A stretch of 64,000 bases of DNA, taken from Polyangia bacterium (GTDB taxonomy: Bacteria; Myxococcota_A; Polyangia; Polyangiales; JAUICN01). A model generated the notes under the pieces. It was not told the origin of the DNA. It was given only the letters and a program-made list of their open reading frames with translations, and made no database searches. The DNA is taken from contig JAUICN010000004.1 of the NCBI GenBank assembly GCA_030427835.1, positions 1 through 64,000 of the forward strand, in the 5' to 3' direction. Both the position numbers and the translations under genes were made by a program. Positions within the stretch are counted from its first letter, which is position 1, and every line of letters starts with the position of its first letter. This document shows, in pieces, positions 15,364-25,083 of the stretch.

Positions 15364-17064
15364 TCAATCCTGGGAGCGGCGACCGAGCCACCATAGGTAG
15401 GCGCTGTAGGAGGTGGACCAGGCCATGGTTGCGCCAAACAGGCCCACGCCCATGAAAAAGTGATCCAGGCCCACGAGCAGTGCCGAGGCCAGGACCCCTG
15501 AGGCCGTGACCAGCCCCTGGAGCAACCGGTGCCCCCGTCGTTCCATGGCGGCGGCAAGCGCCAGATCCCGCGTCATGATCTGCACGCGGCCGGCCCGCAA
15601 ATCCTCCAGTACCTCGGCCGCCTGAACGGGCATATCCCCCGCGGTGGAGCTGAGTCGCAGGGCGGTCTGCAGCAGTTCGGCCCCCAACCTCTCAGGCGAG
15701 TAACGTTGCTTCACCAGGTCTAGAAAGTAGGGGGAAACCTCCTCCATGATGTCGAGCTGTGGGTAGATTTCCTTGCCCACGCCCTCCACGGTCATCATGG
15801 CCTTGCCCATCATGAGAAAGTCCGCTGGGATCTCGATGCCGTACTTTCGGGCCCCGTAGGCCAAGTCCCTCACCATCTGCGAGAAATCCAGATCCTGCAG
15901 TTGCTTGCCCAGGTACCGTTCAGAAAGCACCGCAACCTCAGTTTCAAAGGCCTCCCGATCCACCCGCCGCGTGGGCTTACCCATGGCGTAGAGCGCATCG
16001 GCAATGGCCCGTGCATCCTTGCGGGCACAACCCACCATCAGGTCCACCATGCGATCCCTCAGGCGCGGGGTGAGCCTTCCCACCAAACCCAAATCCACCA
16101 TGCCCAAAACGGGCGCCCCGGGGGTTCCCCCAATCAGCACATTTCCAGGGTGGGGGTCCGCGTGGAAGAAGCCATCCTCAAAAATCTGTTGCATCACCGT
16201 GTTCAGGGCGAGCCGGGCAATCTCTTCCCCGCTGAACCCGTCGTTCACGGCCGCGTAGACCTTCTTGCCCTCCAGGAACTCCATGGTGATCACCCGCCGG
16301 GCGCTGGCCTGGCGGTAGATCTTAGGAAACTTCACCCGGGGGTTGTCCGCAAAGTTGGCTGTAAACCGGTCGGCATTGTCGGCCTCCAGGGTGAAATCCA
16401 ACTCGGCTCGGATGGCCCGGTCAAACTCTTCCACCAACTTCATGGGCGAGTACATGCGCGATTCAGGAATCGAACGCTCCACCGCCCGCGCAAGCCAATG
16501 CAGTAGATCCAAGTCCCGTTCCACAATGGATTGAATGCCTGGCCGTTGAATCTTCACGGCCACCTTGATGGGTGCTGCGGGCTCGGCCTGTTCCCGCGCG
16601 TTGTCACCCGGTTCCTCCAAGGGGCTGGGCACCAGCATCGCCCGATGCACCTGACCCACCGACGCGCTGGCAATGCACTTTGGATCGAACTCCGCAAAAA
16701 CCTCCTCGATAGGCGCGCCCAGCTCGGCCTCCACAAGGGGCTTCAACTCCGCGAAGTCCACGGCCGGCACATTGTCCTGGAGTTTTTTCAGCTCAGAAAC
16801 AATGTCCTCGGGGATGACGTCCGGCCGCGTGGAAAGGATCTGGCCCAGTTTCACAAACGACGGCCCCAGATCCTGCAGCACCAGGCGCAGCCGGGTACCC
16901 CGGGCACTGGCCTGCCCAGAAGCTTCCGGACCCGGGTTAGTGCTTGGGCGCACCAGGGAACCAAGGCCCGCTCGCTGCACCACCTCACCAAACCCATGGC
17001 GCATCAGCACCACCACGATTTGCCGCAGCCGGTCCAGGTCCTTCACAGGTTTCAACAAGCCCAT
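15364..17064 (-). CDS. ABC1/UbiB-family atypical kinase
   Basis: 566 residues, the usual length for UbiB/AarF. Family signatures: the KxGQ motif in SFVKLGQILSTRPD, an Ala-rich loop variant SASVGQVHRA, VAVKIQRPG (the ATP-site lysine), FHADPHPGN (catalytic loop) and VDLGLVG (DFG equivalent). The C-terminus has one or two hydrophobic segments (LVTASGVLASALLVGLDHFFMG) that would anchor it in the inner membrane. Members support ubiquinone or other quinone/lipid pathways; no quinone synthesis gene is nearby. A Glu/Pro-rich insertion lies between the Ala-rich loop and the lysine strand. Confidence 0.9.
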   Translation of the reverse strand: MGLLKPVKDLDRLRQIVVVLMRHGFGEVVQRAGLGSLVRPSTNPGPEASGQASARGTRLRLVLQDLGPSFVKLGQILSTRPDVIPEDIVSELKKLQDNVPAVDFAELKPLVEAELGAPIEEVFAEFDPKCIASASVGQVHRAMLVPSPLEEPGDNAREQAEPAAPIKVAVKIQRPGIQSIVERDLDLLHWLARAVERSIPESRMYSPMKLVEEFDRAIRAELDFTLEADNADRFTANFADNPRVKFPKIYRQASARRVITMEFLEGKKVYAAVNDGFSGEEIARLALNTVMQQIFEDGFFHADPHPGNVLIGGTPGAPVLGMVDLGLVGRLTPRLRDRMVDLMVGCARKDARAIADALYAMGKPTRRVDREAFETEVAVLSERYLGKQLQDLDFSQMVRDLAYGARKYGIEIPADFLMMGKAMMTVEGVGKEIYPQLDIMEEVSPYFLDLVKQRYSPERLGAELLQTALRLSSTAGDMPVQAAEVLEDLRAGRVQIMTRDLALAAAMERRGHRLLQGLVTASGVLASALLVGLDHFFMGVGLFGATMAWSTSYSAYLWWLGRRSQD

Positions 17065-21303: not shown

Positions 21304-22680
21304 ATGGCGATTCCGCCTTCCGATCCCCCTGGCGACCCCAAGAGCGCTGACAACACGCTTTCTGCCCCTCCTCCTCTGAAAGCGCCCGCCAAAGCGGTCT
21401 CGAGCCTACCGCCACCCGCCCCACGGGTTTCAAGGCCGAGTTTGCCCCAGTCCCAGGGCACGGCCCCGCAGGCTCCCATGGCCGGTGACGAGCCTGGTGT
21501 GGACGCCCAGCTAGAAGCCGATTCTGGGCTGGCCGATTCTGGGCTGGCCGATTCTGGGCTGGCCGATTCTAGGCTGGCCGATCCTGAGCCCACAAAGATC
21601 GATGACGTGGATGCGTCCACTCCAGAGGACGAATCCTCCCCTGAGGACGCGCCCACCCTAGAAACGCGACCCGTGGAATCTCGTGCCGCCGAAGAGGTAA
21701 AGACGCCACCCAAGCCTCCACCCGTGGCAGCCAAAGAATCCGCCGCTTCCAAGCCCGTCAAGAAGCGCCCACCTCCCACCGATGAAACGCCCCTGGGTAG
21801 CCCCAACCAGGGCAAGGCCACCCAACAGCGTCGTTGGTTCGAGACCTTCTTTGATGAAGATTACTTTCGTACGGTGCCCACGCCTTCAGACGATTGGATT
21901 GCTCGCCAATGTGACTTTCTTGAACACGCGGTAAACCTGGAAGCCGGGCAGCGTATTCTGGATGTGGCCTGTGGCCAGGGGCGCCATTGCGCCGAGCTTG
22001 CGAACCGTGGCTATTCCGCAGTGGGTCTCGATCTTTCCCGGTCCATGCTTGCCCGCGCCTCGGCCAACTCCGAGCGGCGAAATGTGGACGTTAGTTTTCT
22101 ACATGGAGACATGCGTGTTCTGGATTTTCGTGAGTCCTTTGATGTGTTGAGCTGCTGGGGTACCTCGTTTGGCTACTTCGACGACGAAACCAACCGTGAT
22201 GTGCTGACCCGATTCCACCGGTCGCTGGTCCCCAATGGAAAACTATTGCTGGACATCGTGAACCGGGACTACGTCATGCGCGCCCAACCCAACCTGGTCT
22301 GGTTTGAGGGCGACCAATGCGTGTGCATGGAGGAAACCCACTTCAACCACATCAAGTCACGGCTCGAGGTGAAGCGCACCGCCATCTTTGAGGATGGCCA
22401 TCAACAGGAAAACCAGTACGCAGTGCGCCTATTTTCCATCCATGAACTGGGGCAACTCCTGTACCAACATGGGTTTCGTGTGCTTTCCATCAGCGCCCAC
22501 GAGACCATGCCCGGGGTATTCTTTGGATCGGACTCTCCCAGGATTCTGGTGGTGGCAGAACGCAAGCCCGGCGAATCCACCCGCACGAGCCTCTCAGGCC
22601 CACCGCCCACCGGCCGCCAATCCATGCCCCCCGACCGCGGCACCCAACGCATGCCCGGCATCCCCAGAAAACCCGTGTAG
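21304..22680 (+). CDS. class I SAM-dependent methyltransferase with long disordered N-terminus
   Basis: 458 residues in two parts. Residues 1-175 are Pro/Ser/Glu-rich, without predicted structure, and include five copies of the pentapeptide A-D-S-G-L. Residues about 180-430 form a Rossmann-type methyltransferase: motif I ILDVACGQGRH, GLDLSRSML (acidic loop), HGDMRVLDF, FDVLSCWGTSFGYF and the later PNGKLLLDIVN. The substrate is unknown. The position 2 bp after psd suggests a link to phospholipid head groups such as phosphatidylethanolamine N-methylation, but this is inference from neighbourhood. The disordered part may be a protein-interaction or localisation tail. Confidence 0.78.
   Translation: MAIPPSDPPGDPKSADNTLSAPPPLKAPAKAVSSLPPPAPRVSRPSLPQSQGTAPQAPMAGDEPGVDAQLEADSGLADSGLADSGLADSRLADPEPTKIDDVDASTPEDESSPEDAPTLETRPVESRAAEEVKTPPKPPPVAAKESAASKPVKKRPPPTDETPLGSPNQGKATQQRRWFETFFDEDYFRTVPTPSDDWIARQCDFLEHAVNLEAGQRILDVACGQGRHCAELANRGYSAVGLDLSRSMLARASANSERRNVDVSFLHGDMRVLDFRESFDVLSCWGTSFGYFDDETNRDVLTRFHRSLVPNGKLLLDIVNRDYVMRAQPNLVWFEGDQCVCMEETHFNHIKSRLEVKRTAIFEDGHQQENQYAVRLFSIHELGQLLYQHGFRVLSISAHETMPGVFFGSDSPRILVVAERKPGESTRTSLSGPPPTGRQSMPPDRGTQRMPGIPRKPV
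21517..21591 (+). repeat. 15-bp coding tandem repeat, five copies
   Basis: The unit GCCGATTCTGGGCTG is repeated five times in frame inside the methyltransferase N-terminus. Copies 1-3 are identical, copy 4 has one change and copy 5 four. It encodes A-D-S-G-L. In-frame repeats like this change copy number by slippage without a frameshift. Confidence 0.9.
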
Positions 22681-22698
22681 ACTACTCACCGCTCCTCT

Positions 22699-23167
22699 AG
22701 ACTCGGCGCGAAAGCGACGACGCGTAGCGGAGTCGGAGAGGGGCCCCGTCGGGTGCTTCGCACCCGTGGGGAGAGGGTTGCCCCAACCCTCTGGAAACTC
22801 AGTACCGTACGTCGAAGTTGATTCCGAAACCTGACCCAATTCCAACGACGGAGGAGGGACACCGAAGCGGTCCAGACTCGGCGCGAAAGCGACGACGCGT
22901 AGCGGAGTCGAAGAGGGGCCCCGTCGGGTGCTTCGCACCCGTGGGGAGAGGGTTGCCCCAACCCTCTAGAAACCCAGTACCGTACGTCGAAGTTGATTCC
23001 GAAACCTGACCCAATTCCAACGACGGAGGAGGGACACCGAAGCGGTCCAGACTCGGCGCGAAAGCGACGACGCGTAGCGGAGTCGGAGAGGGGCCCCGTC
23101 GGGTGCTTCGCACCCGTGGGGAGAGGGTTGCCCCAACCCTCTAGAGATTCAGTACCGTACGTCGAAG
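22699..23167. repeat. 175-bp tandem repeat array with strong hairpins, about 2.7 copies
   Basis: Units begin at about 22701, 22876 and 23051, exactly 175 bp apart and nearly identical. Each carries CGGGTGC-ttc-GCACCCG and, about 6 bp further, AGAGGGTTG-ccc-CAACCCTCT (22772-22792 in copy 1). A GACTC...GAGTC arm pair also lies at the unit start. The third copy runs 19 bp into the tonB 3' end (tonB stops at 23149). The array fills the gap between the convergent methyltransferase and tonB genes and probably ends transcription from both sides; no U-tracts follow the stems. No other gene is supported in it: open frames through it are by-products of the periodicity. Confidence 0.9.
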
Positions 23168-23991
23168 GAACAGGAGAAGGTGAGCTCGGTGGCCACGGGT
23201 TGCCCCTCGGGGCCGATGGCGGGGGACCAGTTCGGCGCTTGCTGCAGGGTTTGTACACAGGCCTGGCCAAATCCATTCCAGGTCTCGGTAACCACACGGA
23301 GTATGCGAACGCGGCCACTTGGCAACAGGCGAATTTTGACCCGTGCCTCCCCCTCAATGCCCTGTCGTTTCGCAGTTGCGGGGTAGTTGTCCTGAAGCAG
23401 TCCATTCAAGTTGGGCGGGGGGGTAGGGCGTCGTTCCAGATTGCCCAGGGGAACCACCGCGCCTGCCCCACGGCCTTGCCCGGTTCCCCCCACCGCCCCA
23501 TTGGGATCGCCTTCCCTCCTTCGGCCCGTGGCCACGCCGGGGGCTCCAATGGGGCTTATCCAATCCCGTCCGCTGGCCTGTTGGGTGGACCAACCCGAAC
23601 CGCTCGTCCCCTCGTTTGTCATCACCAGGCCGTCGAACTCAGCCAGGGTTTCTTCGGCCGGCGCCGGATCCGGATCCGGATCCGGCTTCGGATTGGGTTT
23701 TGCCACGGGCACGTCCCGGGGCTTGGGAACCACCGGGATCGGTTTGGGGGCGGGGGCTTCTTCCTCCGGGTCTTCCTCCACAGGCGGTTCTTCCGGATCG
23801 GGTGCAAGCGGTGGCAGTTCCAGTACCTCCACTTCCAACTCACCCAAACCCTGATCAAGGGCGGCTCGCGTCGGAAGCGCGGAGAGCCCCGCGTAGGAAA
23901 CCCCATGCACGAGGGTGCTCAGAGCGAGGCAACCGGTGATGACAACCCAGCCCCGGCGGTTCCAACCGCGCGCCGTCCAACCCTGTTCCAC
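23149..23991 (-). CDS. tonB: energy-transducing protein TonB
   Basis: 280 residues. TonB links the inner-membrane ExbB-ExbD motor to outer-membrane receptors. An N-terminal membrane anchor (WVVITGCLALSTLVHG) is followed by a Pro/Glu/Lys-rich periplasmic linker (about 50-110, with a run of DPDPDP-like units) and a C-terminal receptor-contact domain (about 195-275: NYPATAKRQGIEGEARVKIRLL, GRVRILRV). The protein ends SCSFDVRY. Its last codons are shared with the tandem repeat array downstream. It is last in exbB-exbD-tonB, 7 bp after exbD. A Gly-rich stretch at about 140-175 is unusual. Confidence 0.88.
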   Translation of the reverse strand: MEQGWTARGWNRRGWVVITGCLALSTLVHGVSYAGLSALPTRAALDQGLGELEVEVLELPPLAPDPEEPPVEEDPEEEAPAPKPIPVVPKPRDVPVAKPNPKPDPDPDPAPAEETLAEFDGLVMTNEGTSGSGWSTQQASGRDWISPIGAPGVATGRRREGDPNGAVGGTGQGRGAGAVVPLGNLERRPTPPPNLNGLLQDNYPATAKRQGIEGEARVKIRLLPSGRVRILRVVTETWNGFGQACVQTLQQAPNWSPAIGPEGQPVATELTFSCSFDVRY

Positions 23992-23998
23992 GTGCGGC

Positions 23999-24412
23999 CT
24001 ACTTCAGGTCCGAAGGTTTCACATTGATGGCGAACTTGGTGACCTGTTCCTGACGCAACAAATCGATGATTTGTACCACCGAAGCGTGGGGCACACGGCC
24101 GTCCGCGGCGATTACTGCCCGGACGTCGGCGTCCTTTTGACGGGCCTCCCTCACACGGGTTTGCAGTACCGCACGGGTAACCGGTTCCGCATCCAATGCC
24201 AGGGTGCCGTCCTGCCCGATGGACACGGAAAAGGTTTTCGGTGTGGATTCTCCGGTGGCGGCCTCAGGGAGTTCCATCGGAAGGGTTTTTGAAACAATGG
24301 CTGTGGCCGTGACCATCATGATGATCAGCAACACCAAAACAATGTCTACCAGGGGCGTGACGTTGATCGCGGTAATGGGCTCATCATCGCCGCCGTGAAT
24401 GCTGCCGGCCAT
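23999..24412 (-). CDS. exbD: biopolymer transport protein ExbD/TolR
   Basis: 137 residues from ATG 24412, which lies 2 bp past the exbB stop; a longer frame into exbB was rejected. One membrane helix (PLVDIVLVLLIIMMVTA) carries the proton-path Asp in the ITAINVTPLVD block that defines the family. The periplasmic domain follows: VRAVIAADGRVPHASVVQIIDLLRQEQVTKFAINV. It works with ExbB as the proton-driven motor of the TonB system. ExbD and TolR cannot be told apart by this alone; the tonB gene next to it favours ExbD. Confidence 0.92.
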   Translation of the reverse strand: MAGSIHGGDDEPITAINVTPLVDIVLVLLIIMMVTATAIVSKTLPMELPEAATGESTPKTFSVSIGQDGTLALDAEPVTRAVLQTRVREARQKDADVRAVIAADGRVPHASVVQIIDLLRQEQVTKFAINVKPSDLK

Positions 24413-24414
24413 GG

Positions 24415-25083
24415 CTACGGGGCTCCGGCGTCGGAGGTGTCCCGGGAGGATGTGTTTCCCCCATTCGCAGAACACCAGGCGAGTAGCGCGCGACCAAAAT
24501 CATCGGCCTGGGCAAGGCGAGATTTGATCATCCGTTGGAACAGGTTGAAAAAGGCGACTGCAGGAATCGCCACGAGAATACCAATGGCCGTGGCCACCAG
24601 GGCTTCACCGATTTCGCTCATGAGCGCGTCACTCACCTGTCCTTCGCTTTGCTCAAGGGCCGCAAAGGATCGAATCACCCCAATCACAGTCCCAAGCAAA
24701 CCCACGAACGGCGCGTTGTTGCCCACGGTGCCCAGGAAGGTGAGGTTGCGCTCCATATGTAGTTTGGCCATCTGCGATGCCCCCGCCAGGCGGTGTTCCA
24801 CAGCCTCAGTCCCGTCAGCGGATGCTTCCAAGCCAGCAGCCACCACCTGGGCCTCCACGGAACGGGATTGCTCCAGAAGTGCCGAAGCACCCTCCCTGTC
24901 GCCGGCCCGAAGTTTGTCCAGGAATCGATCCTTGAGGGTAAGTACGTCATCCCGGGTGGCGAAAAAGGCGTAGGCGCGCTCCAGCACAATGGCAAGACCC
25001 ACCACGGAAAGTCCCACCAATACCCACATGACCCACTCTGCGCCAAGCATGGCAAAAGCGGTTAATCGTTCCTGAATACCCAT
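24415..25083 (-). CDS. exbB: biopolymer transport protein ExbB/TolQ (MotA/TolQ/ExbB family)
   Basis: 222 residues with three membrane helices: one near the N-terminus (WVMWVLVGLSVVGLAIVLERAY), two in the C-terminal half (PFVGLLGTVIGVIRSF and ALVATAIGILVAIPAVAFFNLFQ). The family signature NAPFVGLLGTVIGV is present. It forms the channel of the ExbB-ExbD motor. It is the first gene of the exbB-exbD-tonB operon. The divergent space to the FG-GAP gene (25084-25274) should hold its promoter, but no clear box was found. Confidence 0.92.
   Translation of the reverse strand: MGIQERLTAFAMLGAEWVMWVLVGLSVVGLAIVLERAYAFFATRDDVLTLKDRFLDKLRAGDREGASALLEQSRSVEAQVVAAGLEASADGTEAVEHRLAGASQMAKLHMERNLTFLGTVGNNAPFVGLLGTVIGVIRSFAALEQSEGQVSDALMSEIGEALVATAIGILVAIPAVAFFNLFQRMIKSRLAQADDFGRALLAWCSANGGNTSSRDTSDAGAP

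Follow-up and report, generated by a model that had tools for sequence, protein, structure and literature searches.

Tandem array at the end of tonB

The window analysed here is a stretch of 64,000 nucleotides of contig JAUICN010000004.1 from a Polyangia bacterium. Within it, the gap between a methyltransferase-domain gene on the plus strand and the convergent tonB gene on the minus strand is occupied by a tandem array, and tonB is followed by exbD and exbB, all on the minus strand (Table 1). The array was recognized by TRF as one repeat with a period of 175 bp and 2.7 copies (97% matches, 0% indels, score 903), whose units started at 22696, 22871, and 23046. Copies 1 and 2 were 98% identical over 175 bp, and the three copies varied at 6 positions within the 122 bp common to them. 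The edges of the array lay 18 bp and 6 bp from the two stop codons, and the exact 175-bp unit had no second site elsewhere in the genome. The TRF result confirmed the initial annotation, which had described about 2.7 units of 175 bp between convergent genes, and none of its coordinates or lengths needed correction. The assembly is a draft of 30 contigs, in which an array could be produced or mis-sized by assembly error or collapse; this explanation is very improbable, since the copies differed at the six positions, the unit boundaries were consistent, and similar arrays were present in independent assemblies. ExbB placed the lineage near MAGs of Sandaracinaceae/Myxococcales; a scan of named genomes with tonB gave no relatives. 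In the N-terminal part of the methyltransferase ORF, a separate 15-bp repeat with 4.7 copies (21517-21586 of the window) encoded an ADSGL-type peptide repeat.

Table 1. Positions of the genes, array, and unit parts in the window
Feature	Position	Strand	Basis or remark
Methyltransferase-domain gene, converging on tonB	21304-22680	+	Stop TAG, 18 bp before the array
Tandem array, 175-bp period, 2.7 copies	22699-23167		TRF, repeat search
Leading imperfect palindrome GACTC..GAGTC	22700-22734; also 22875-22909, 23050-23084	+	Sequence, fold
Hairpin A, CCCCGTCGGGTGCTTCGCACCCGTGGGG in copy 1	22744-22771; also 22919-22946, 23094-23121	+	Fold, covariation
Hairpin B, AGAGGGTTGCCCCAACCCTCT in copy 1	22772-22792; also 22947-22967, 23122-23142	+	Repeat search, hairpin scan, covariation
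Two-hairpin core, copy 1	22716-22792	+	cmsearch, R1 96.1 bits
Two-hairpin core, copy 2	22891-22967	+	cmsearch, R1 93.1 bits
Two-hairpin core, copy 3	23066-23142	+	cmsearch, R1 96.1 bits; 6 bp from tonB stop
tonB 3' end copy, FDVRY, stop TGA intact	22799-22817	-	Sequence comparison
tonB 3' end copy, FDVRY, stop changed to TGG	22974-22992	-	Sequence comparison
56-bp spacer	22818-22873 (copy 1); 22993-23048 (second copy)		Minus-strand reading gives an apparent GIGSGFGIN
tonB (TonB_C, PF03544)	23149-23991	-	Last 19 bp are the third gene-end copy
exbD (PF02472), largest ORF	23999-24475	-	Gene finder start at 24412
exbB (PF01618)	24415-25083	-	ORF and domain

Structure of the repeat unit

On the plus strand, each unit consisted of the GACTC..GAGTC palindrome, hairpin A, hairpin B, six bases, a copy of the tonB end, and a 56-bp spacer, in this order. 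The spacer was absent beside tonB and to the left of copy 1; with this left-hand spacer missing, the present order is not explained by a single simple duplication. The strong paired hairpins described previously were supported by folding, as the 96-nt hairpin block was more stable than its shuffles on both strands (z of -2.8 on the plus strand and -2.3 on the minus strand), while the z of the whole 175-nt unit was only about -1.6. No U-tract was found beside hairpins A and B on either strand, the consensus terminator scan gave no intrinsic terminator within 22699-23167, and Rfam gave no credible match in 22500-23400, even with E values up to 5.

The minus-strand motif CTTCGACGTACGGTACTG(A/G) occurred three times, once in each copy, with the third at 23149-23167 being the end of tonB itself; copies 1 and 3 have the stop TGA, and copy 2 has TGG in its place. 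The third copy thus runs into the last codons of tonB (FDVRY and stop), as the initial annotation had noted, and since the last array copy ends inside tonB, copies 1 and 2 carry the last five tonB codons. The initial annotation had also pointed out the coding string GIGSGFGINFDVRY, which is indeed readable in copies 1 and 2 with the stop intact in copy 1, and had noted its resemblance to the last strand of an outer-membrane barrel, so that the array may have grown from the end of such a gene (GFGINFDVRY), whose remainder would have been lost. This origin is extremely improbable, and it was rejected on the basis of protein and pattern searches in this genome and 183 relatives. No protein ending in GFGINFDVRY was found in either, no GFGxxFDVRY protein was present among the 183 other genomes of the order, the peptide PLRCPSSVVGIGSGFGINFDVRY matched array copies 1 and 2 only, and FDVRY-stop occurred nowhere in the genome outside the array. 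TonB homologues of the order natively end in F[E/D/R][V/I][R/G]Y, as in CNFRIRY, CGFEIRY, and CRFEVGY from other families, so that FDVRY is tonB's own ending. In addition, GC-rich DNA will by chance contain open stretches of about 19 codons. The “barrel strand” GIGSGFGIN is best read as a fortuitous open frame across the spacer, which is non-coding and adjoins the end of tonB. Growth from a gene-end fragment was right insofar as the array carries the end of tonB itself, but a source in an outer-membrane-barrel gene was not supported. Recombination between direct repeats is the natural route to 2.7 copies.

A dispersed family of two-hairpin elements

Sequence comparison assigned the hairpin block to an element family with dispersed copies, a point that the initial annotation had missed. 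A DNA search of 184 genomes of the order with the unit detected four sites in genome G074 with relatives of the hairpin block (E of 1.5e-9 to 4e-4), and their alignment displayed two hairpins side by side, with nine double-sided changes. What is conserved is a core of 77 positions that comprises these two hairpins. Five core loci were found in the own genome, namely the tonB array, C12, C17, C2, and a weaker one on C18. Two of them were reached via weaker unit matches: an 89-bp tandem array between convergent genes (C12:97936-98269) and a 160-bp tandem array at another gene end (C17:81236-81594).

A covariance model of the core, R1, was used for counting with a per-genome threshold of E <= 0.1. 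It gave 83 matches in G030, 62 in G001, 53 in G180, 37 in G029, 30 in G181, 22 in G183, 19 in G074, 18 each in G011 and G053, and 11 in the own genome; isolated matches at an E value of about 0.05, as seen in other genomes, are what chance would produce. At E <= 1e-5, R1 matched 7 of the 189 genomes sampled across the phylum, six of which belong to this order (the own genome included) and one to the same class. The 183 other genomes of the order served for comparison, and core matches occurred in some other families. It had been proposed that absence of the unit from relatives, together with RNA 3' ends that do not map to the hairpins, would speak for a neutral duplication; the exact unit is indeed absent from them, but the core is present.

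Pairing in the core was conserved. Among 73 distinct core copies, 92.7% of the cells were paired, 18 of the 21 pairs had changes on both sides (12.2 in shuffles), and 225 cells carried double changes as against 63 in shuffled alignments, with none of 500 shuffles as high, although these covariation counts lean toward R1 because the alignment was made with it. When the partners were slid, the pairing signal collapsed. Given the effect size and the slid-partner controls, a chance origin of the signal is unlikely. Literature searches, mostly of freely readable papers, yielded no similar hairpin elements in myxobacteria; the core family is apparently unlisted, and its novelty is provisional.

Tandem arrangement and placement at gene ends

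Tandem repetition was found to be a habit of the family. In G030, arrays with a period of 164-175 bp were present at 7 of 20 fetched loci, some of which had been selected because matches lay close together, and one further array had a period of 221 bp; G001 contained arrays with a 160-161-bp period. Four of the five core loci of the own genome were tandem, with spacings of 175 bp at tonB, 160 bp on C17, 89 bp on C12, and 254 bp on C18. The last of these, G000:C18:35196-35581 (within L065, 35150-35660), consisted of two segments with a weak core match and ended against tRNA-like sequence. The tandem statistics covered 584 kb of the own genome in stretches, 120 kb of which was picked around pattern hits, and in the unbiased sample (the window plus 400 kb) the tonB array was the only repeat with a period of at least 80 bp. 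Two shorter tandem arrays, of 15 bp and 32 bp, lay in divergent gaps (G000:C27:112156-112240 and C19:66859-67015).

Using home-made gene calls, 4 of the 5 own core loci lay between convergent genes, compared with 74 of 431 junctions (P 0.004), a figure that is not fully independent since two own loci went into the R1 model. Among the G030 core loci with both neighbours called, 7 of 13 were convergent (P 0.003) and none of 13 was divergent (P 0.09). Such placement at gene 3' ends fits a possible role at RNA 3' ends. A core was also seen near a tonB end in G030 (L209), and in G074 cores lay beside an apparent TonB-like gene end and between two ExbD-like genes (L082, L231); both observations are possibly due to chance.

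The initial annotation had suggested that the array may act as a bidirectional transcription barrier. In this reading, the array is a selected terminator or insulator, the extra copies of which are kept to stop read-through between the convergent genes. The location of the elements at gene 3' ends and the covariation of the core hairpins speak for it, as does the enrichment of perfect hairpins in the convergent gaps of the own genome (12 in 7.7 kb, 0.2 in shuffled sequence) versus the divergent ones (1 in 15.2 kb). However, a T-rich tail accompanied only 1 of the 12 convergent-gap hairpins and none of the core hairpins, the consensus scan gave no terminator in the array, and mobile DNA is expected to have the same placement, since insertion in convergent gaps does no harm. 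Intrinsic termination is doubtful because no U-tract follows the hairpins, and selection as a terminator or insulator is unlikely. Recurrent GAACCTGGGT(T/C)nnTTTT hairpins with a T tract were observed near other gene ends (G000:C2:17950-18020, C18:33062 and 33115), and these look like the true intrinsic terminators of this genome.

Duplicated gene ends around the elements

At three core loci of the own genome, the last 18-39 bases of the neighbouring gene were present in further copies, with synonymous-only differences at two of them. On C2 (18031-18215), a single element lay between two 27-bp gene-end copies, both reading CYARCCKF-stop, and on C17 three copies of QYAKQLGKVVLG-stop surrounded two elements. 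All six differences among the C2 and C17 copies were synonymous, for which P was about 0.001-0.007 with constraint on the real end only, and 0.007-0.03 when the stop loss at tonB was counted. Downstream gene-end copies scoring at least 14 were found at 4 of 433 gene ends, compared with 0 of 370 positions inside genes and 1 of 431 gene starts. Two 15-16-bp gene-end duplications just past the stop were observed without a core, at the C12a gene at 16136 (G000:C12:84136) and at the C18 gene ending at 128506.

The copies at these three loci may represent a target duplication on insertion or a duplication of the element together with its flank. By the former, the element would enter a few codons inside the 3' end of a gene, an 18-41-bp duplication would rebuild the last codons and the stop (gene-E-element-E), and recombination between the E repeats would multiply the element (E-U-E-U-E). 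The C2 and C17 arrangements, the threefold presence of FDVRY at tonB, the synonymous differences, and the excess at gene ends point in this direction. Against it, only three loci are involved, the stop is lost in copy 2 of the tonB end, the length of E varies, unlike that of most transposon target duplications, and no comparable gene-end duplication surrounded the examined elements in G030, G074, G001, and G181 except at L215 of G030, where a 38-bp flanking repeat consisted of element-type sequence. Target-duplicating insertion is unlikely as the origin of the array, and gene-end duplication as a general rule was rejected, as it was not seen outside the own genome.

Mobility and the G181 version

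In G181, the core lay inside a sharply bounded repeat of 171 bp (170 bp in one of five aligned copies), of which four copies were identical, one more was at least 98% identical, and further copies found by DNA search were 84-99% identical. Its borders were exact (CTAAACAG...CATGTGTAG) with unrelated flanks, and its CTA...TAG ends formed imperfect terminal inverted repeats (11/15 by eye) and were compatible with a TA target duplication. Some insertions turned the end of a gene into C-TAA, with the TAA of the element replacing the stop of the gene. Among the loci of this repeat (L217-L220, L223), the joined flanks at some sites resembled split hairpins (L218 GGTCCCTGCTAGAGGGACC, L223 GTGCTCCAAGCAC), as if the repeat inserts into hairpin loops. 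The flanks of G181 and G017 were too diverged for an empty-site comparison. With regard to the MITE hallmarks of terminal inverted repeats, a target-site duplication, and several near-identical copies, no terminal-repeat ends as in G181 were identified in the window copies, and the search gave no empty site. A CTAG/TA target as a general rule was rejected; it agrees with G181 and with some borders, but many of the elements elsewhere have ends other than CTAG.

Mobilisation by a RAYT was rejected as well, since Y1 transposases do not follow the element. Y1_Tnp (PF01797) was absent from G011 and G029 with their 18 and 37 core matches, a core was nearby at only 1 of 10 Y1 loci tested, and the single PF01797 gene of the own genome had no core within 2 kb. 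No transposase linked to the core family was found.

Comparison with known repeat families

REPs and REPINs are GTAG/CGTC palindromes (Di Nocera 2013, PMC3733652; Bertels and Rainey 2011, PMC3116915). Conv-REPs are no farther than 20 bp from either of the two flanking gene 3' ends, and REPs can provide stop codons and form tandem groups together with flanking DNA (PMC3733652); in Pseudomonas fluorescens SBW25, REPIN clusters are tandem, include the flanks, and have a spacing peak at 184 bp (PMC3116915). Like them, the core family consists of dispersed intergenic palindromes near 3' ends and in convergent gaps, as the placement in the own genome and G030 demonstrated, and it occurs in ordered tandem repetition with its flanks. 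By this 3'-end placement and flank-including clustering, the window array works like a REP/REPIN cluster. However, the core is 77 positions long and contains two neighbouring hairpins that differ from each other, with CGGAGTYGG as its conserved lead, and its units are head-to-tail and found in Myxococcota. The REP tag, a palindrome of 20-40 bp with unpaired GTAG or CGTC at one end, was not found in the core: no conserved GTAG/CGTC stood beside a stem in core consensus A5, and CGTC occurred only inside hairpin A of some copies. A RAYT in the same genome flanked by the repeats, as for REPINs, was not consistently linked to the core either. By its lack of tag and of RAYT association, the window array is no member of the REP/REPIN family.

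Enterobacterial RU/ERIC elements have units of 127, 168, and 103 bp, and RU elements are of similar size and touch gene ends (PMC2759123). Likened by description, they share with the core family a size of 160-171 bp, stable stem-loops, an intergenic position, and contact with gene ends or stop codons, and with the G181 version the CTA...TAG ends and imperfect terminal repeats; these repeats are seen in G181 alone and not in the window copies. Convergent bidirectional intrinsic terminators likewise place strong GC-rich stems between two stop codons, but the array has no U-tract on either strand and its copies are multiplied and dispersed. VNTR or minisatellite arrays in bacterial intergenic DNA consist of few, nearly identical head-to-tail copies. 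The array has this form too, but its unit holds a member of a dispersed structured family.

Discussion

We consider it quite probable that the array is a local cluster in which copies of a dispersed, REP-like hairpin element stand head to tail, the element having settled where two convergent genes meet. One element would have lain next to the tonB stop or inserted there. Duplication would then have taken in this element, the spacer flanking it, and ~18 bp of the tonB end, and slippage or unequal crossing over between the repeats would have given the 2.7 copies. The real tonB stayed intact because the duplicated stretch contains its last codons and stop.

The element is probably, in the main, mobile or selfish DNA that is tolerated at the tonB site. 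Its additional copies are likely to be close to neutral, and selection acting on the array as such is unlikely. A real role of the core at the RNA level has somewhat less than an even chance. Transcribed from either convergent gene, the hairpin pair would give the mRNA a structured 3' end, which would block 3'-5' decay, and it may help factor-dependent termination; protection of RNA 3' ends or assisted termination by the hairpins is possible.

With these results, the phylum gains a family of dispersed hairpin elements with conserved pairing that appears to be unlisted and for which literature searches gave no counterpart there. They indicate that tandem clusters with flanks, known for REPINs, also form where the GTAG tag and a consistent link to a RAYT are lacking. 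They also caution against taking any string that looks coding at a repeat junction for a gene relic, and they provide concrete cases of duplicated gene ends that keep their coding sense. A more speculative proposal, to which we give little credence as yet, is that Myxococcota hairpin elements enter genes a few codons before the stop and duplicate the gene end (18-41 bp, with preserved coding sense), which would restore the gene and supply direct repeats to feed tandem amplification. If true, the family would be comparable, in a short and protein-less form, to elements that rebuild the gene 3' ends into which they integrate.
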